Source of the DNA: a virus
DNA: 55,728 nt
Reading direction: 5' to 3' (one strand)
Virus record (IMG/VR): IMGVR_UViG_3300030117_004086
Coordinates: 1 to 55,728 of that record
Translations under genes and position numbers: made by a program
The notes under the pieces: generated by a model
What the model was told of the DNA's origin: nothing
The model's input: only the letters and a program-made list of their open reading frames with translations
The model's database searches: none
Shown here: in pieces, positions 45,639 to 53,901 of the stretch
How positions within the stretch are numbered: the stretch's first letter is position 1
How the letters are laid out: each line of letters begins with the position of its first letter

Positions 45639-45792
45639 TAAATTAGATAAGATTGAAAAGAGACTAGATAATCTAGAAAAAAAAATAGATCATCTAACAA
45701 AAACTCTTGACAAACATATAAAGTTTATAGATAATACTTATGAAGGATTACGTAATCCTATTGATAGTGTGAAAAGGTGGTTAAGTAAGTGA
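45628..45792 (+). CDS. 54-residue coiled-coil protein
   Basis: Two adjacent ATGs at 45628; the frame overlaps the nuclease gene by 11 nt and ends in a GTGA overlap with the next gene. Heptad repeats (KIEKRLDNLEKKIDHL) cover residues 6-35. A TTGACA/GATAAT pair (45707-45735) lies inside it and might serve the downstream genes. Confidence 0.68.
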   Translation: MMNDKLDKIEKRLDNLEKKIDHLTKTLDKHIKFIDNTYEGLRNPIDSVKRWLSK

Positions 45793-46337
45793 CAATAGAA
45801 CAATACAAATTATATCATAAATTAGACGGAAAGTATGGTGATGGCCAGATGATCCTTTCTTATTATAATCAAATTAAAGGTCTGATTGATGATACAAAAT
45901 CACAGTCATTATTAGACTTTGGTTGTGGAAAAGCAAAAATCTATAAAAGAGTAAATCTTGCAGAAAAGTTTGGAATGATGCCAGACTTATATGACCCTGC
46001 GATTGAAGAATACTCTGAACTTCCAAATAAACAATATGATGGTGTTTTTTGTTGTGATGTCATGGAACACATACCGGAAAATGAAGTACCTGGTGTTATT
46101 GAACAAATTTATGAAAGAGCAAACAAGTTTGTTTTCTTTGCAATCGCTACCGACCCTGCGATGGCAGTTCTACCTAATGGGGAAAATGCTCATTGTACCA
46201 CTAAACCAATACAGTGGTGGGAAGAGATAATTAATAAAAATGCACCTAAAAAGGTTTATTCACACGTGTTGTTAACAGGAAAGTTTGAAAACTATTCTAT
46301 ATTAAATGAGGAGTTATATCTTGAATCATTATTCTAA
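45789..46337 (+). CDS. Class I SAM-dependent methyltransferase
   Basis: 182 residues from a GTG. SLLDFGCGKAKIYKR at about 40-54 is SAM motif I, and VFCCDVMEHIPENEV gives the post-motif II acidic strand of small-molecule methyltransferases. No DNA-methyltransferase motif (DPPY or PC) is seen, so a sugar or small molecule is more likely. It starts a three-gene group with a deacetylase and a glycosyltransferase. Confidence 0.8.
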   Translation: MTIEQYKLYHKLDGKYGDGQMILSYYNQIKGLIDDTKSQSLLDFGCGKAKIYKRVNLAEKFGMMPDLYDPAIEEYSELPNKQYDGVFCCDVMEHIPENEVPGVIEQIYERANKFVFFAIATDPAMAVLPNGENAHCTTKPIQWWEEIINKNAPKKVYSHVLLTGKFENYSILNEELYLESLF

Positions 46338-46911
46338 AGTGCTTATATTATCTGCCCACCCAGATGATTTAGAAATATCATGTGGTGGAACAGTCGCAAA
46401 GTTTGTAGATGAAGGAACTAAAGTAGATAACATTATTTTATGTTCAAACGTAAAACATAAAAAATATGTTGCATCATCATCAAAAATTTTAGGATATAGT
46501 CCAATATTTTTAAATCATAGGGATGAATCTCCGACAAGTAACGTCATCTCAGAGATAGAAAAAAAAGTTGACGTAGAATCATATGATTTAATAATTACAC
46601 ATTGGAGTGAAGATTGGCACCAAGATCACAGATTTTGTCATGAATTAGGTAATTCATTAAGAAGAAAACAACAACTTGACGTATGGTATATGAACGCATA
46701 TCCCTATTGTCAAAAATATAAAAGTTTTGAAGCAAACTTATTTGTAGATATTACAAGATACAAATATAAGAAACTAGACGCAATATCACTATATGATAAT
46801 GTGCCAGATGAATATTACATAGGGATCGATAGTATGTCTAGATATCGAGGATCATTTGTTCATGTAAAACATGCTGAGGTATTTAAAGTTGATACACTAT
46901 TGTATTGTTAA
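46321..46911 (+). CDS. LmbE/PIG-L family N-acetylglucosaminyl deacetylase-like enzyme
   Basis: About 196 residues from the TTG at 46321, chosen for GAGGAG at 46308-46313; an ATG at 46306 is the alternative. SAHPDDLEISCGGT at the start is the zinc-binding AHPDDxE signature, and HWSEDWHQDHR supplies the later His pair. The family removes acetyl groups from GlcNAc-type sugars. Here it sits between a methyltransferase and a glycosyltransferase, so it may shape a surface glycan. Confidence 0.85.
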   Translation: MNHYSKVLILSAHPDDLEISCGGTVAKFVDEGTKVDNIILCSNVKHKKYVASSSKILGYSPIFLNHRDESPTSNVISEIEKKVDVESYDLIITHWSEDWHQDHRFCHELGNSLRRKQQLDVWYMNAYPYCQKYKSFEANLFVDITRYKYKKLDAISLYDNVPDEYYIGIDSMSRYRGSFVHVKHAEVFKVDTLLYC

Positions 46912-47617
46912 ATATGGTAATGAGTGTCATTATCAAAACGTTGAAGAACTACTTAAAAATATCACAGAACCTGTTCATGATAGTTGTCTTGATATAAAGT
47001 TTCATTTACTCACTGATAAACCTGTAGATATTCCATATATTAATAATATTAATTATGATAAAGATGATGTTGAAGTTCATACACATTGGAAGAAGTTACA
47101 GTTTTTTGATCCAAAATTTATTGGTGCCAGTAGAACTGATCAAACAATTGTGTCTGACTTAGATATGATATGGAATAAAAATCCAACTGAGATAGTTCAA
47201 CATCATGTAAAAAAGAAAACATTATTATCAGTAGATAGATGGTGGAAAAAAGATAGTGATGTATGTAGAATGTGTGGAACATTTTACAAATTTAATTCAC
47301 ACGATTTTAAATATATTCCAAAAGTCTATAATAAACACTATGAATATTTTAGAGAGTATTATGCTTTGCATGAAGATGCAGGTTCTACAAGAATTGTTGG
47401 AGGTGAACAAAACTTCGTACAAGAAATGATAGAACTTACAGGAACAATTGAACTTATGCCTCCAACATTTGTTATGAAATCTAATTGGCCAAAAGATAAT
47501 AAAGATTATGATTTACAAAATGTTTTCATAGAAAGATTTGAAAGTGCAACTGGTTTGAATTATTATGATTGTTGGGATTCAGCAATATTGCATATAATTA
47601 AAAGAGGAATCAACTAG
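46889..47617 (+). CDS. Glycosyltransferase-like protein (GT-A, DxD motif)
   Basis: About 242 residues from a TTG at 46889, giving MIHYCIVKYGNE; GAGG lies upstream. SDLDMIW at about 95-101 is a DxD metal site, and IVGGEQNFVQEM fits the acceptor region of GT8-like enzymes. It overlaps the deacetylase by 23 nt. Sugar and acceptor unknown. Confidence 0.72.
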   Translation: MIHYCIVKYGNECHYQNVEELLKNITEPVHDSCLDIKFHLLTDKPVDIPYINNINYDKDDVEVHTHWKKLQFFDPKFIGASRTDQTIVSDLDMIWNKNPTEIVQHHVKKKTLLSVDRWWKKDSDVCRMCGTFYKFNSHDFKYIPKVYNKHYEYFREYYALHEDAGSTRIVGGEQNFVQEMIELTGTIELMPPTFVMKSNWPKDNKDYDLQNVFIERFESATGLNYYDCWDSAILHIIKRGIN

Positions 47618-47629
47618 ATAAATATTATC

Positions 47630-47881
47630 ATGGGTATAATAGAGATACTAAATCAATATGGTTTTGCAACTTTGGCCGCAGTCGGCATGGGTTGGTTTAT
47701 ATATTTTATATACACTTATATTACCACACAAGTCAAGGTAAAACTAAATGAAATGAACAGTGTTTTGATCGGTTTGATTGATAGAATTAGAATGTTAGAC
47801 AATGATTTAATAAGATTAAGATCAAAACTAAACACTGTACTTACACTAAGAGAAGTAGAAAAACAAAATAAGGATAAATAA
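47630..47881 (+). CDS. Transmembrane coiled-coil protein, copy 1 (curli region)
   Basis: 83 residues: an N-terminal transmembrane helix (LAAVGMGWFIYFIYTYI) then a coiled coil (DRIRMLDNDLIRLRSKLNTVL). The protein at 48716 has the same layout and related sequence (LD-x-RVKNMNNDMIKLD), so they are paralogues. It precedes the secreted and CsgF-like genes. A GATAAATA late-like box sits just before it. Confidence 0.72.
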   Translation: MGIIEILNQYGFATLAAVGMGWFIYFIYTYITTQVKVKLNEMNSVLIGLIDRIRMLDNDLIRLRSKLNTVLTLREVEKQNKDK

Positions 47882-47885
47882 TTAC

Positions 47886-48257
47886 ATGAACAAATTAATT
47901 TTTATATTACTATTATTATTCAGCACATCAGCATGGGGTGCTGCGTGGAATGAAAAACCAATACTGTGTTCAAGTTATGAAGAGACATTTTCTGCGATTG
48001 AGGCAAAAGGTGAAAAGTTAGTGTGGACTGCTATTCAATTTACTAAAGTAAAGGGACCAAATAATACTTATAGAGAGCACCCAGAGATGTTAGTATCTGC
48101 CAAATATATAAATCAGTTTACAAGAACATATACATTATTAGAGTATCATCCTAAGTATCTAGTGTATTGTGTTATTAGTTGGGGAACAGACTTGTTATTA
48201 CAAGATGAACTTGATCCTAACACTTACTATAGACCAGACAGAGAGGTATTTAAATGA
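47886..48257 (+). CDS. Secreted protein upstream of CsgF (unknown)
   Basis: 123 residues with a clear signal peptide (cleavage near SAWGA, residue 18). The mature domain has two Cys (CSSYEE and LVYCVISW) that could form a disulfide. It does not match CsgE by eye, although its place in the cluster would suit an accessory curli factor. It overlaps csgF by 4 nt. Confidence 0.72.
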   Translation: MNKLIFILLLLFSTSAWGAAWNEKPILCSSYEETFSAIEAKGEKLVWTAIQFTKVKGPNNTYREHPEMLVSAKYINQFTRTYTLLEYHPKYLVYCVISWGTDLLLQDELDPNTYYRPDREVFK

Positions 48258-48715
48258 GAATAATATTAACACTTTTATTTCTATCTAGTTCAGTGTTTGC
48301 TGAAACATTAGTTCATGAATTTCATAATCCGTCATTTAGTGGTATAGGATACTCACAACATGTTTTGTCAGTTGATCAATTGCAAAATCAAAGAAAAAAA
48401 CAAGTGACTGATGACGCAAAATCAGCTGCCGCACAAGCAGAGAGAATAGAAAAAAATAAAACTGTCAATAAATTTATCACAAATGTTGAGTCAAGAATCT
48501 ATGCAAACTTATCAAAACAATTAGTTGATAATATGTTTGGAACAAGTTGTGATACTGAAACGACAACTTGTCCTACAAGTGGCACTGCAAATATTGAAGA
48601 TGCACAAATTTACTGGGTTAAAGATACAACAACTGATACAATAACTTTGACTGTAACTGCCGCAGACGGATCAGTGACTACTATAGTTGTTCCTGTAGGG
48701 GATTTTCAGTTCTAA
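48254..48715 (+). CDS. csgF: CsgF-like curli assembly protein
   Basis: 153 residues with a signal peptide (to VFA, residue 16). The mature start LVHEFHNPSFSGIGYSQHVL matches the F-x-NP-x-FGG opening of CsgF, the part that inserts in the CsgG pore. ITLTVTAADGSVTTI at the end matches the CsgF C-terminal strands. CsgF couples curlin secretion to surface nucleation. The gene lies 285 nt before csgG, with one small gene between. Confidence 0.85.
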   Translation: MRIILTLLFLSSSVFAETLVHEFHNPSFSGIGYSQHVLSVDQLQNQRKKQVTDDAKSAAAQAERIEKNKTVNKFITNVESRIYANLSKQLVDNMFGTSCDTETTTCPTSGTANIEDAQIYWVKDTTTDTITLTVTAADGSVTTIVVPVGDFQF

Positions 48716-48997
48716 ATGGACTTATTTTTTGCGATATTAGTAGAATTTGGACTACCTGTAGCAGCTGCAGTCGTTATGGGATTTTTTATATTCCTAATAT
48801 TACGATACATTCTTGAATCAGTGATAGGTCAAGTCAAAGGAATGCATGGTATAATCATGAGTTTAGATAATAGAGTAAAAAATATGAACAATGATATGAT
48901 AAAACTAGATATTCAAATATCTGATGCATTGAATTTAAGACAAGATGAAGAAAGAATCAGTAGGGCAGATGGCAAAGAAGACGCAAGGAGAGATTAA
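48716..48997 (+). CDS. Transmembrane coiled-coil protein, copy 2 (between csgF and csgG)
   Basis: 93 residues with a long hydrophobic helix (about 8-34) and a coiled coil (NRVKNMNNDMIKLDIQI), then a charged tail. Paralogue of the 47630 protein. It begins right after the csgF stop and is followed by the csgG ribosome site. It may anchor or regulate the secretion complex, but no known curli subunit has this form. Confidence 0.7.
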   Translation: MDLFFAILVEFGLPVAAAVVMGFFIFLILRYILESVIGQVKGMHGIIMSLDNRVKNMNNDMIKLDIQISDALNLRQDEERISRADGKEDARRD

Positions 48998-48999
48998 TA

Positions 49000-49941
49000 G
49001 TGTTAAAAATAATCTATATTGTACTTTTAGGAGTAATATTATCTAGTTGTGCGTCTAATTATCAAGATTTTGACACATATAAAGGTGATATGCCATTTGT
49101 TGAAGGAACACCCACACAAGAATTATTAGAAGAATTACCAGATTTAGATCAACAAAAGATAACAATCGCAGTATATAAGTTTACAGATCAAACTGGTCAA
49201 AGAAAACCTAGTTCAAAATTTTCTCAACTATCTACAGCAGTTACTCAAGGATCTGATGCATTTGTAATCAACGCACTAAGATTAGTGTCGAAAGGTGATT
49301 GGTTTCAAGTTGTAGAAAGGGCTGGACTTGATAATCTTGTAAAAGAAAGACAACTAATCAGATCAACAAGAGAACTTTATGATGGCGAGTCAACAATTGA
49401 TAACGTGTTAAAACCTTTAGTCTTTGCAGGCATAATCATTGAAGGTGGTATAGTTGGATATGATAGTAACACTGCGTCAGGTGGTATTGGTGCAAGATAT
49501 TTTGGTCTTGGTGCAAATGAACAATACAGAGTTGACCAAGTGACAGTATCTATGAGATTAATATCAGTGCAAACAGGTGAAATTATATTGACACAAAATG
49601 TTACAAAAACAATTGCAAGTTTTAGTAGCAGTGGTGACGTATTTACATTTTTAGACATGGGAACTAGGGCGCTTGAAGTAGAGGCAGGTGTGGCAATAAA
49701 TGAACCTGTAAACTATGCCATAAGGACAGCAATAGAATATGCTGTTTATCAAATGATTCTAGATGGCGAAAGAAAAGAATTATGGAAGTTCAAAATACCA
49801 CAAAACAATCAAAAAGTTGAGGAACTTCCACCATTACCTATCGAGGACTTACCTATTCCAAAAATCCATGAAGATGACATGATCCCATTCATAGAAAGCA
49901 TGGATTTAAATGAGTTCAAAGATCATCCGATACATAAATAA
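49000..49941 (+). CDS. csgG: CsgG-like curli secretion lipoprotein
   Basis: 313 residues from a GTG with AAGGAG 9 nt upstream. Signal sequence with lipobox LSSCAS (Cys about 17). The CsgG core is clear: ITIAVYKFTDQTGQRKPS, STAVTQGSDAFVINAL, WFQVVERAGLDNLVKERQLI, and VTVSMRLISVQTGEII (beta-barrel/pore region). In E. coli nine copies form the outer-membrane pore for curlin export. The C-terminal extension (about 265-313), rich in Pro and acidic residues, is longer than in CsgG of enterics. It is followed by a late-like promoter and curlin genes. Confidence 0.92.
   Translation: MLKIIYIVLLGVILSSCASNYQDFDTYKGDMPFVEGTPTQELLEELPDLDQQKITIAVYKFTDQTGQRKPSSKFSQLSTAVTQGSDAFVINALRLVSKGDWFQVVERAGLDNLVKERQLIRSTRELYDGESTIDNVLKPLVFAGIIIEGGIVGYDSNTASGGIGARYFGLGANEQYRVDQVTVSMRLISVQTGEIILTQNVTKTIASFSSSGDVFTFLDMGTRALEVEAGVAINEPVNYAIRTAIEYAVYQMILDGERKELWKFKIPQNNQKVEELPPLPIEDLPIPKIHEDDMIPFIESMDLNEFKDHPIHK
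49933..49940 (+). promoter_or_regulatory. Late-promoter-like box CATAAATA before the curlin gene
   Basis: CATAAATA at the very end of csgG, 24 nt before the curlin-like start, with GAGAGGGGCG as ribosome region between. Suggests separate late expression of the curlin. Confidence 0.5.
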
Positions 49942-49964
49942 TAATACAAGAGAGGGGCGAAGCT

Positions 49965-50651
49965 ATGTTAAAAATAACAAGTTATATAATGTTTGTTATG
50001 TACATGATTGTTCCTTTATATGCTAACGACATATATGTCACACAATCTGGTGCGAATTTAGACTTAGACATAACACAAGACGGGTCGAATAACACTGTTG
50101 GTAACTCAACAACTGCATCAACATCTACAGGTGCAACAACTGTTCTTGATATTGATCAAGTAGGTAACTCAAACGTGATCACATATCAGATCAATGGTGC
50201 GACTTATACTGGTACAATTAATCTAACAGGTAACTCAAACGATGTAGATTTAAATTGTGACAGTGCAGGCAATAATAGTTCTTGTGGAACTGTGACTGCG
50301 AACATTACTTGGACAGGTAATTCCAATGATATTGATTTAGATATTGGTGAAACAAGTGATGCGTCAAATACAACCGTAAATATTACAGGTCAATCTGGTT
50401 CTGATAGTAACGTGGTTGCAGCCACTATTGACGGAACAAGTGCCATCTTAACTTTAACAGTTAACGGTGATACAAATAATTACTTGATTGATATTGACGG
50501 AGACGGTGATGTAAATGGTCATACACTGATACATACTCACACTGGCAGTATTGCTGATGTTGATATAACACAATCAGGTGTCAATGATAACTACATTTCT
50601 TTGACAACATCAGGTGATAATGCAGACATTGATATCTCACAAACTGATTAA
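49965..50651 (+). CDS. Curlin-like amyloid repeat protein (major)
   Basis: 228 residues: signal peptide (to LYAND, about 21), then imperfect repeats of the curlin kind: VTQSGANLDLDITQDGSNN, DIDQVGNSNVI, LTGNSNDVDL, WTGNSNDIDL and DITQSGVNDNYI. The Q-x-G-x-x-N spacing is that of CsgA/CsgB. It should be the secreted substrate of the CsgG pore. It is Asp- and Thr-rich with few Lys/Arg, so very acidic. Confidence 0.83.
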   Translation: MLKITSYIMFVMYMIVPLYANDIYVTQSGANLDLDITQDGSNNTVGNSTTASTSTGATTVLDIDQVGNSNVITYQINGATYTGTINLTGNSNDVDLNCDSAGNNSSCGTVTANITWTGNSNDIDLDIGETSDASNTTVNITGQSGSDSNVVAATIDGTSAILTLTVNGDTNNYLIDIDGDGDVNGHTLIHTHTGSIADVDITQSGVNDNYISLTTSGDNADIDISQTD

Positions 50652-51741
50652 GTTAATATTAGGAATATTCCTTTTTTTCAGTACGACACTCTATGCAAGT
50701 TCCATAGGCGATGTTGTATTGAAAGAAGGAAATTCTGTCATTCAAAGAGTTGACAAAACTGAAGTAAAAGTAGAAAAAGATTTAGATGTTTTCTCATACG
50801 ACACAGTAAAAACAGGTAAGGGAAAACTTGCAATTGAGTTTTTAGATGATACAAGAGTTGATGTCACATCTCATTCAAAACTTATCATAGATGAATTTGT
50901 ATATGATCCTAATTCAAAGACAGGTAAACTATCTTTAAAAGCATCATTAGGAACTGTAAGATATGCAAGTGGTCAGATCGCAAAAAATTCAGCACAAAAT
51001 ATTAGTATCAAAACACCGACTGCAACTGTTTCAGTAAGAGGAACAGATTTTGCAATGACAGTCGATGAAACTGGGTCATCTACTATCATACTATTACCAA
51101 GTTGTGACACTGAAGGTAATTGTTTTGTGGGTGAAATAGCAGTAGAAAGTGACGCAGGTTTTGTAATATTGAATCAAGCATTTCAGGCCACTCAAGTAGA
51201 TGTGCCAGAAAATAGACCAATAAACCCTGTTATCATAGAATTAGACGAGTCACTTATTACAAATTTGTTGATTATTAGGAAACCACCCAAACTAAAAGAT
51301 CAGATAGAGTATGAAAAAAGACTAAAAATAGTATCAAATGTATTAGATTTAGACTTTCTAAAGTTTGAGGATTTAGAAATTGACTTATTGAGGGTAGAAG
51401 AAGACGAGTTTGCAAGTAGATTAGATATAGACTTTCTTGAAAATAACTTCTTGGCAGATGTGTTAGAGGAATTAAACCAACAATTGGCCTTGCAAATGAG
51501 AAGTGAATTTGATAAGATAGAAGAGAAAAAGAAAGTTGGTCAAGATGAATTTGGAGTTATACTTATTGAAGAGGATGGTAATTGGATCTGGGTTAGAGAA
51601 GATGCCGCAGGTAATAATATAGTTCTGACATTAGATCAAGAAAATGGATATATATTGAATGTACAACAACAAGAGTTTGAAATCAGAGATTACAGATTAG
51701 GAGAGGGTAGTAATGAAATTTACATTAATCAAAATCAGTAG
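50620..51741 (+). CDS. FecR-domain secreted protein
   Basis: About 373 residues; the start is uncertain because GTG 50614, ATG 50620 and TTG 50629 are all in frame within the curlin 3' end. A signal sequence (LIKLILGIFLFFSTTLYASS) leads to a FecR domain: IGDVVLKEGNSVIQR, VFSYDTVKTGKGKLAIEF, and SIKTPTATVSVRGTDF, the hallmark. The C-terminal half is acidic, ending in a WIWVREDAAGN segment. FecR domains often pair with CHASE2 cyclases, and one is encoded two genes later. Likely a periplasmic or surface sensor. Confidence 0.85.
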   Translation: MQTLISHKLIKLILGIFLFFSTTLYASSIGDVVLKEGNSVIQRVDKTEVKVEKDLDVFSYDTVKTGKGKLAIEFLDDTRVDVTSHSKLIIDEFVYDPNSKTGKLSLKASLGTVRYASGQIAKNSAQNISIKTPTATVSVRGTDFAMTVDETGSSTIILLPSCDTEGNCFVGEIAVESDAGFVILNQAFQATQVDVPENRPINPVIIELDESLITNLLIIRKPPKLKDQIEYEKRLKIVSNVLDLDFLKFEDLEIDLLRVEEDEFASRLDIDFLENNFLADVLEELNQQLALQMRSEFDKIEEKKKVGQDEFGVILIEEDGNWIWVREDAAGNNIVLTLDQENGYILNVQQQEFEIRDYRLGEGSNEIYINQNQ

Positions 51742-52048
51742 TATATTATTGTTTACATTATCAGCGTTTGCAAATAATTTTGATTTAACAGTGACAAGTA
51801 GTACAGGTTATTCCATAACAACAACGCAAGATGGTGTCGATAACGATATAGATTTTGATATGTTAAATATGGATTCTGCTACTATAATTTTTAATCAAAC
51901 AGGTAATTATCATTCTATCGATATTGATGTTGATGGTAGAACAAGTGATGGTAGTTCTATCACTGTAAATCAAACTGGCAACAGTAAAAGTTATAGTGGT
52001 AATTTATATTGTGGTCACACATACTGCACTATGACTTTAAATCAATAA
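51713..52048 (+). CDS. Curlin-like protein (minor)
   Basis: 111 residues with a signal peptide (to AFAN, about 21), then curlin-type repeats: TTTQDGVDNDIDFDM, IIFNQTGNYHSIDID, ITVNQTGNSKSYSGN. It is shorter than the main curlin-like protein and could act as a nucleator, like CsgB. A good GGAGAGGG ribosome site precedes it; it overlaps the FecR gene by 29 nt and shares one base with the cyclase start. Confidence 0.78.
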   Translation: MKFTLIKISSILLFTLSAFANNFDLTVTSSTGYSITTTQDGVDNDIDFDMLNMDSATIIFNQTGNYHSIDIDVDGRTSDGSSITVNQTGNSKSYSGNLYCGHTYCTMTLNQ

Positions 52049-53901
52049 TGAAAAAAATATTCACACATTGGACTTTTCCATTAGTCACATTATTTTTTTT
52101 AATTTGGGTAGGAGTTAAAGATCCACAAGTAAAAGAAATACTTAGATTAAAATCCTTTGATCTAATGTTACAATCGCAAGATAAACAAATATCTCAAGAC
52201 ATTGTTATAGTTACGATAGATGAAAAGTCTATAGAAAAGTTTGGCCAATACCCATGGTCAAGAGATACTTACGCTGATATTATAGATTACTTACGATTAA
52301 AAAATGCAGGTGTTATTGTATTACCTATTTTATTTTCTGAAGAGGATAGATTTGGTGGTGATGAAATATTTGCAGATTCACTTAAAGATAATTTTGTTGT
52401 GGTTGGACAAGTTGGTTCAAATCAAACTTCCAACAATGGTTATCCTAGAGGAGTTGCAAAAATAGGTAATCCTTTAGATTGGTTATTTGAGTGGCGTGGA
52501 ATGGTTGGCCCAATACCAACTATAGGTGATAGTGCATCAGGTGTAGGAGTTTTGAACACTGCACCAGAGATTGATGGTGTCGTTAGAAGAATGCCTTTAC
52601 TAATGAAAATAGGTGAAGATGTATATCCGTCTATGGCAATAGAAGTTATTAGAACTGCTACAGGTGATCCTAGTTATCAAGTAAAATCTGGTGATGCTGG
52701 AATCATAGCAATGCGAGTGCCTGGGTTTGCAACAATAAAGACAGATGCAAATGCTAGAATTTGGTTATCATGGAATACAGCATATCCAACTATTTCAGTC
52801 GCAGATTTAGGATCAGAAGAATTAAGATTTGAAGGTAAAACTGTTATAGTCGCTGTAACTGCTGAAGGATTAAGTAATGTAATCGCAACACCAATAGGAA
52901 GTCAATATGATTATGTTGCAATCGCATCTACACTTCAAACTGTAATTGATGGTATTAATATAGAGAGGATAGACATACTACCACTCATAGAGATTGTATT
53001 AGCATTTTTTGTTGGTTTATGTATAGTTTTAGTTACGAGATTTGCACCATATCTTATTGTTGGTCTAACAATAGTTTTAGGAAGTATAGGTGGATTAGTT
53101 TACACTAATTTATTATTCCAACAAAAATTAATCTTATTTGATATTACTTGGATATTAGTAACAATATTATTTGTAGGTTTACATGGTATATTTAATAGAT
53201 TTATTTTAGAATTTAAATTAAAACAACAAATAAGAAAACAGTTTGAAACATATCTTGATCCAAGACAAGTTGCCATATTACAAAAAGATCCTAGTAAATT
53301 GAAACTTGGTGGTGAGAGAAAAGAGATGTCATTCTTGTTTATGGATATCGTAGGGTTTACACCCATATCAGAATATTATAAAAATAATAATAACCCAGAG
53401 GGATTGGTAGAAGTTATTAATGATTATTTGAATCGCATGACAAAAATAGTTTTAGATAATGGTGGAACTGTTGACAAATATATGGGTGATTGTATTATGG
53501 CATTTTGGAACGCACCACTTGATTGTGAAAATCATGCTGACATGGCAGTAAAAACAAGTATAGAGTGTGCGAAAGAAACTGAAAATTTAAAAGAAGAATT
53601 TAGAAAAAAAGGATTACCAGAAATCAACATAGGATCGGGTGTCAACACTGGCACATGCATTGTTGGAAATATGGGAAGTGATAGTCGATTCGACTATTCT
53701 GTGATTGGTGATGCAGTCAATCTAGCCGCAAGATTAGAAGCATCAACAAGAAACTACAAAGATGAAAATGGAAAAGTTGTGGCGACTTTATACTCTTCAT
53801 ATACAAAAGATCAACTGACAAACATTGAATCGATTGAAGTTGATAAAATAAAAGTTAAAGGTAAAGAAGAGTTAATTACAATATATAAACCAAAGGAGTA
53901 A
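52048..53901 (+). CDS. CHASE2-domain class III adenylate/guanylate cyclase
   Basis: 617 residues from the ATG at 52048. N-terminal transmembrane helix, then an extracytoplasmic CHASE2 sensor domain (about 30-300; FDLMLQ, VIVTIDEKSIEKFG-QYPWSR), three transmembrane helices (about 315-395) and a class III catalytic domain (about 430-610). Catalytic landmarks are FLFMDIVGFT (metal Asp), VDKYMGDCIMAFWNAP (second Asp and substrate Lys) and YSVIGDAVNLAARLE (Asp, Asn, Arg). It should make cAMP from a periplasmic signal. Together with curlin, CsgG and FecR it forms a sensory or adhesion block in a phage genome. Confidence 0.93.
   Translation: MKKIFTHWTFPLVTLFFLIWVGVKDPQVKEILRLKSFDLMLQSQDKQISQDIVIVTIDEKSIEKFGQYPWSRDTYADIIDYLRLKNAGVIVLPILFSEEDRFGGDEIFADSLKDNFVVVGQVGSNQTSNNGYPRGVAKIGNPLDWLFEWRGMVGPIPTIGDSASGVGVLNTAPEIDGVVRRMPLLMKIGEDVYPSMAIEVIRTATGDPSYQVKSGDAGIIAMRVPGFATIKTDANARIWLSWNTAYPTISVADLGSEELRFEGKTVIVAVTAEGLSNVIATPIGSQYDYVAIASTLQTVIDGINIERIDILPLIEIVLAFFVGLCIVLVTRFAPYLIVGLTIVLGSIGGLVYTNLLFQQKLILFDITWILVTILFVGLHGIFNRFILEFKLKQQIRKQFETYLDPRQVAILQKDPSKLKLGGERKEMSFLFMDIVGFTPISEYYKNNNNPEGLVEVINDYLNRMTKIVLDNGGTVDKYMGDCIMAFWNAPLDCENHADMAVKTSIECAKETENLKEEFRKKGLPEINIGSGVNTGTCIVGNMGSDSRFDYSVIGDAVNLAARLEASTRNYKDENGKVVATLYSSYTKDQLTNIESIEVDKIKVKGKEELITIYKPKE

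Follow-up and report, generated by a model that had tools for sequence, protein, structure and literature searches.

A probably late-expressed, curli-like export module with a putative FecR–CHASE2 sensor pair in a T4-like marine phage

The DNA analysed here, referred to as the window, is a linear virus record of 55.7 kb (IMG/VR IMGVR_UViG_3300030117_004086, 55,728 nucleotides (nt)) and represents part of the genome of a T4-like marine phage. Between positions 47630 and 53901 it carries a module of curli (type VIII) secretion genes joined to genes for a FecR-domain protein and a CHASE2 adenylate cyclase. The DNA polymerase of the window is 63% identical to that of the OM43 phage Melnitz and about 54% identical to those of cyanophages, and its CsgG and cyclase are each 67% identical to their counterparts in the Pelagibacter phage HTVC008M. 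By sequence identity HTVC008M and Melnitz are its relatives, and this kinship points to SAR11 or OM43 as the probable host. All genes of the module lie on the plus strand in a single tight run:

47630..47881, plus strand: tB, a membrane and coiled-coil protein of 83 amino acids (aa), phrog_18771
47886..48257, plus strand: secreted protein of 123 aa, no Pfam match and no known family
48254..48715, plus strand: CsgF, curli assembly or pore-associated protein (Pfam CsgF, E = 4.7e-14)
48716..48997, plus strand: tA, a 93-aa paralogue of tB, phrog_18771, with a nearly invariant C-terminus (...RADGKEDARRD)
49000..49941, plus strand: CsgG, outer-membrane curli pore lipoprotein (Pfam, 1.8e-51)
49965..50651, plus strand: curlin A, secreted beta-solenoid subunit (mature N-terminus NDIYVTQSG)
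50614..51741, plus strand: secreted FecR-domain protein (Pfam FecR, 8.6e-10; tail GSNEIYINQNQ)
51713..52048, plus strand: curlin B, a curlin-like protein recognised by family, with a conserved C-terminal Cys pair
52048..53901, plus strand: CHASE2-class III adenylate cyclase (Pfam CHASE2, 2.4e-43; Guanylate_cyc, 8e-18)

The initial annotation had described CsgF, CsgG, two curlins, a FecR protein and a CHASE2 cyclase in one run of overlapping genes. All six were recovered, with small overlaps (about 38 nt between curlin A and FecR, 29 nt between FecR and curlin B, and 1 nt between curlin B and the cyclase). The interval starts with a small membrane protein and not with CsgF, and the secreted protein and both small membrane proteins had been left out of that gene list. 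The start of the cyclase was placed at the ATG at 52048, because position 52045 reads ATA.

Gene order was compared in 80 related viral contigs, counting for each gene only those loci whose sequence leaves room for it. Two orders were found, t-t-F-G-c-R-c-A and t-F-t-G-c-R-c-A, where t stands for the small membrane proteins, c for the curlins, R for FecR and A for the cyclase. CsgF was present in 78/78 loci, curlin in 67/67, FecR in 53/53 and the cyclase in 31/31, and both t genes in 55 of 63. An independent scan by FecR recovered CsgG in 58/58 loci with room, and a scan by the t proteins found module genes adjoining in 91 of 92. The t pair keeps the module even where the latter is inverted relative to it (e.g. 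loci L299 and L304). The eight module genes are all under strong purifying selection, with ratios of nonsynonymous to synonymous substitution (dN/dS) of 0.00–0.21; therefore the module lies far beyond chance. It is obligate, and its members are near-obligately linked. The 123-aa secreted protein occurs in only 8/84 loci and is thus not a core gene.

Curli-type genes in pelagimyophages, which the initial annotation had mentioned, are indeed on record. Clusters of csgF and csgG were reported by Zaragoza-Solas et al. 2020 (PMC7029224), and Wittmers et al. 2022 gave an account of the complete module, including CsgA/B, FecR, adenylate cyclase and a "histidine kinase", presented evidence for its expression in metatranscriptomes, and published the order CsgF-CsgG-curlin-FecR-curlin-CHASE2 cyclase in myo- and podoviruses (PMC9599517). 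The gene set as such is therefore already published, and the window is a new member of it. HTVC008M (NC_020484, gp11–gp19) has the same genes in near-identical order. However, both of its t proteins precede csgF whereas tA of the window sits between csgF and csgG, its curlin B has 441 aa against 111 aa in the window, and the window has the 123-aa protein inserted before csgF and the module at another genome position. The Melnitz operon shares the gene order; the Melnitz paper recognised only csgF and csgG (PMC9004378), whereas the database record of Melnitz also lists curlin repeats, FecR and cyclase. SAR11 bacteria are among the most abundant in the ocean and have no curli of their own. Why their phages carry such modules is a question raised in three papers, and the present results narrow the range of answers: the module appears to act late, it is obligatorily complete, and its sensor pair seems borrowed from bacterial signalling clusters. 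New here are a corrected "histidine kinase" annotation, an indication of late expression and a suggested attachment of a sensor to the export genes.

The pore components are clearly recognisable. CsgG aligns to the solved E. coli CsgG at 2.5e-48 and its lipobox Cys17 is invariant in the alignment of relatives. The pore lipoprotein and CsgF expected of a curli (type VIII) system are both in place. CsgE, a periplasmic gate that only some lineages possess, gave no Pfam match among the module proteins scanned (the rest of the genome was not scanned for it), and it is reported to be missing in pelagiphages (PMC9599517). Four loci (L055, L058, L065 and L074) have a CsgG constriction loop shortened by four residues (RKQVGLSTAV), and the width of the pore may differ as a result.

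The CsgA/B-type subunit, with its curlin repeats and beta-solenoid, was identified through relatives and a structural model. Curlin A of the window matched Curlin_rpt at E = 0.0027 (18.0 bits, under the curated cut-off of 20.7), and 12/22 of its relatives matched the same family, the best at 8.6e-6. The AlphaFold2 model of curlin A is a confident all-beta solenoid, with a predicted local distance difference test score (pLDDT) of 85 and a predicted template modelling score (pTM) of 0.83. Numerous beta-solenoids of a generic type came up in a fold search with this model (SufB scored best, with Z 16.5 and a root-mean-square deviation of 4.0 over 199 residues), and CsgA was not listed. Curlin B of the window has no Pfam match of its own.

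The FecR domain spans residues 63–157 of a 375-residue protein with an N-terminal hydrophobic signal-like segment and no further predicted membrane segment. Wittmers et al. read this protein as an iron regulator, whereas we read it as a partner of the CHASE2 cyclase. A FecIRA-type regulator is unlikely, the protein being secreted and without a cytoplasmic anti-sigma part, and this candidate was rejected because of that missing architecture; no FecI sigma factor was found in the module. The phage FecR proteins carry a C-terminal tail resembling a curlin strand, in 55/55 and 63/67 relatives of two sets. Elsewhere the tail pattern was met in 1/1037 other open reading frames and in 0/12 bacterial CHASE2-linked FecR proteins.

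In bacteria, FecR and CHASE2 proteins recur side by side. In 12/18 alphaproteobacterial CHASE2 loci, the gene of a FecR-domain protein lies no more than about 6 kb away. Two of these FecR proteins carry RTX repeats, one of them with cadherin-like sequence as well, and both adjoin HlyD genes (in one case OEP too); one CHASE2-linked FecR adjoins a TPR/SlipAM protein. A cluster of FecR, CHASE2, TPR and phosphodiesterase genes is known from Campylobacterota (PMC9239204), and in Sinorhizobium the cyclic AMP (cAMP) regulator Clr targets a FecR-domain protein (PMC5498481). The phage module resembles these clusters in having FecR beside a CHASE2-class III cyclase, for which there is thus bacterial precedent; the bacterial clusters frequently include genes whose products are surface proteins that are exported. 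The phage module differs from them in that they have no curli and lack the FecR tail, and several show RTX/cadherin-type fusions or TPR/SlipAM neighbours. The genomic association supports the earlier proposal that a cyclase joined to fibre genes would sense the state of the cell surface, in so far as FecR–CHASE2 pairs recur in bacteria, several of them close to adhesin or secretion genes. As a separate observation, one 1.2-Mb SAR11-family genome (G014, locus L211) has a CHASE2 protein of its own, has the gene of a FecR-domain protein in its neighbourhood, and lacks curli.

Alphaproteobacterial operons (Azospirillum, Indioceanicola, Erythrobacter, Methylobacterium) share with the phages the csgF-csgG-curlin core and secreted multi-repeat curlins. 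They differ in that neither FecR nor a CHASE2 cyclase nor t genes lie in their flanks, taken to a distance of up to 8 kb, and some carry csgH instead. FecR, cyclase and t genes were likewise missing from flanks of this size at about 80 csgFG loci of bacteria, almost all of them alphaproteobacteria. Capture of the whole FecR-cyclase-curli module from a bacterium was therefore rejected, with FecR or cyclase in 0 of these roughly 80 loci. The few exceptions (L090–L095, in metagenome-assembled genomes (MAGs) of Rhodobacteraceae, Flavobacteriaceae, Pelagibacter and Pirellulales) are closest to the phage set, mostly have t genes, and look like phage contigs binned into MAGs. Because FecR and CHASE2 pair in bacteria and are absent from bacterial csgFG loci, the phage joins two bacterial modules. 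This suggests that the phage FecR and CHASE2 are a transplanted bacterial sensor pair and not an iron regulator, and the phage FecR is best read as a periplasmic partner of the cyclase.

The catalytic motifs of the cyclase are intact in the window. Its catalytic domain is matched by that of CyaB at 3.9e-32, and the motif survey recovered FMDIVGFT, DKYMGD and DYSVIGDAVNLAARLE. The two metal-binding Asp, the substrate Lys and the transition-state Asn and Arg of a class III cyclase are all present.

The timing of the module was approached through ATAAATA, the core of T4-type late promoters, scored as a consensus match. The window holds 17 copies, all on the plus (coding) strand, and 10/17 lie at most 60 nt from the start of a plus-strand gene, in zones that make up 7.9% of the window. 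Three of them fall in the module:

47618..47624, plus strand: ATAAATA late-promoter-like core just 5' of the first module gene (tB)
47874..47880, plus strand: late-promoter-like ATAAATA core in front of the gene for the 123-aa secreted protein and of csgF
49934..49940, plus strand: ATAAATA core 24 nt 5' of the curlin A gene

In relatives, ATAAATA precedes csgF in 38/57 distinct upstream regions, against 3.2 expected. The motif was calibrated in HTVC008M, where it stands before 9/25 structural genes and before 1/47 replication, metabolic or regulatory genes; csgF of this phage is preceded by TATAAATA. In the window, the DNA polymerase and primase genes have sigma-70-like hexamers upstream instead of the late motif. 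Scans of the region for sigma-70 promoters and terminators were near background (79 found against 60.3, standard deviation 8.6, and 3 found against 2.7, respectively). The module is thus probably expressed late in infection, which makes early roles such as an early superinfection block or uptake less likely.

The two t proteins each have one N-terminal membrane segment followed by a coiled coil. They belong to phrog_18771, a family of unknown function, they are paired in 124/127 loci, and tA has a dN/dS of 0.03–0.09. Among isolates, the six marine records (HTVC008M and Melnitz) in which they were found are also those that bear this CsgG, and no other record among 2592 with a related polymerase has them. 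Searches against PDB and Pfam returned only chance coiled-coil matches. We rejected the idea that the genes before csgF are histidine kinases: HisKA and HATPase_c were absent from 11 phage records (the window, the complete HTVC008M, Melnitz and eight further contigs), in a search whose controls were positive in 12–14 of 14 genomes, and no invariant histidine was found among the aligned t members. Since position and number agree, the "histidine kinase" of Wittmers et al., which has no kinase domain here, most probably corresponds to these two paralogous proteins of 83 and 93 aa. In one clade (L058, L060, L064, L065, L068, L074 and L076) another protein fills the t slot before csgF (4254–4475 in L065). 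It has 73 aa and two membrane segments by prediction, it is not homologous to the t proteins, and neither PHROGs nor the phage collection yielded a relative of it. The members of this clade whose CsgG was aligned (L058, L065 and L074) also have the shortened constriction loop.

Altogether, these results lead us to read the locus, with a probability of about 0.45, as a self-contained module for curli (type VIII) export that is expressed late and equipped with its own export sensor. Late in infection the phage would make a CsgG/CsgF outer-membrane pore and two curlin-type subunits, which would cross the inner membrane by Sec, leave through the pore and form amyloid on the surface. The periplasmic FecR, whose C-terminal strand would imitate a curlin strand, might engage the subunits or the pore. 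The CHASE2 domain in the inner membrane would read FecR and set the cytoplasmic class III cyclase to make cAMP, and tA and tB would act alongside the module in the inner membrane, not as histidine kinases. We infer fibre export, contact between FecR and CHASE2, docking of FecR on curlin, how the t pair acts and what the phage gains. The benefit most likely lies at or around release, for example in holding siblings together or timing lysis. A more specific version, in which the curlin-mimicking tail of FecR in the grafted FecR–CHASE2 pair lets the inner-membrane cyclase read amyloid export, and the output, together with the phage-only tA and tB, times the end of infection as an amyloid-export checkpoint for lysis or release, seems unlikely. 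Virion parts only, an outcome raised in the initial annotation, are disfavoured by the predicted signal peptides, the outer-membrane lipoprotein and the inner-membrane cyclase.

Several observations weigh against an export module with its own sensor. Melnitz-infected cultures showed no clumping by cytometry or transmission electron microscopy (TEM) (PMC9004378). The late motif is a consensus match rather than a mapped promoter. AlphaFold2 failed for most of FecR (pLDDT 43); only a small C-terminal beta domain (about 305–375) was confident, with no clear structural match. The search pattern for the FecR tail was derived from the first set itself, and the profile comparison of the FecR C-terminus with the curlin A N-terminus (NDIYVTQSG) covers 8 columns at P = 0.028. 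Since the pattern comes from that set and the profile match is short, docking of FecR on curlin is put forward as a hypothesis only. Cyclases of the Melnitz type (L002 and L070) have VSTAAR where the window has VNLAAR, losing the transition-state Asn, and their activity may be altered. Finally, the cyclic nucleotide-binding domain PF00027 was not found in ten phage records (the window, HTVC008M, Melnitz and seven further contigs), and such domains occur in only 4/79 SAR11-family genomes. Control of curli by cAMP-CRP, as in E. coli, is therefore unlikely here, which leaves the puzzle of a predicted second messenger with no recognised receiver. Class III cyclase domains occur in 3/79 SAR11-family genomes, and two of these three are phage modules.

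Among the other explanations, a role in lysis was proposed by Buchholz et al. 2022, who analysed the Melnitz csgF/csgG pore by AlphaFold2 (PMC9004378). CsgG and CsgF would depolarise the cell when infection ends, serving as a pinholin or gated pore, tA and tB would be holin-like partners, and the curlins would be plugs or leftovers. The late motif fits such a role, as do two small membrane proteins beside csgF and their replacement in one clade by the non-homologous 73-aa protein with two membrane segments. However, no locus with room has lost the curlins, FecR or the cyclase, all of which show strong conservation; CsgG is located in the outer membrane, a membrane that a holin does not require; and HTVC008M has two annotated endolysins elsewhere. 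Moreover, the t proteins are confined to curli-bearing isolates and do not occur in other T4-like phages, and the match of tA to holin families is weak (YvrJ, 0.044, in only 1/11 tA members). We regard a lysis pore as unlikely. Capture of siblings, with fibres binding infected and neighbouring cells so that progeny find hosts (Zaragoza-Solas et al. 2020, PMC7029224), agrees with the complete set of curlins and pore, and late expression fits action around release. Yet Melnitz gave no clumping and aggregation alone does not explain the cyclase, so this role too must be rated a minority possibility.

In a third proposal, the fibres form a coat around the infected cell that keeps other phages out (PMC9599517). 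The PIG-L deacetylase and glycosyltransferase-like genes directly upstream, in the window and in close relatives, speak for it. Superinfection blocks are usually made early in infection. The late-type promoter motif is at odds with this, and a block on competitors appears improbable. A role in uptake, through a pore or through an iron-responsive system in which FecR would be the iron regulator (PMC7029224, PMC9599517), is very improbable, as FecR is secreted without a cytoplasmic anti-sigma part, its bacterial neighbours are CHASE2 proteins and adhesin or secretion genes, and curlins are kept in every locus.

Some further observations concern the surroundings and spread of these genes. Directly 5' of the module, positions 45789–47617 of the window hold methyltransferase-like, PIG-L deacetylase and glycosyltransferase-like genes, which accompany the module in its closest relatives (L004–L008, L017 and L024); this suggests a modification of surface sugars linked to the module. 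The module was also found on a contig of 235,812 bases (IMGVR_UViG_3300032562_000004, L345), bigger than known pelagimyophages. Jumbo phages of Brevundimonas of about 350 kb (H8–H12 in the phage collection) encode distant CsgG-like proteins with 28% identity. Phage curli contigs within MAGs (L090–L095 and L232–L234) could mislead surveys into calling bacterial curli.

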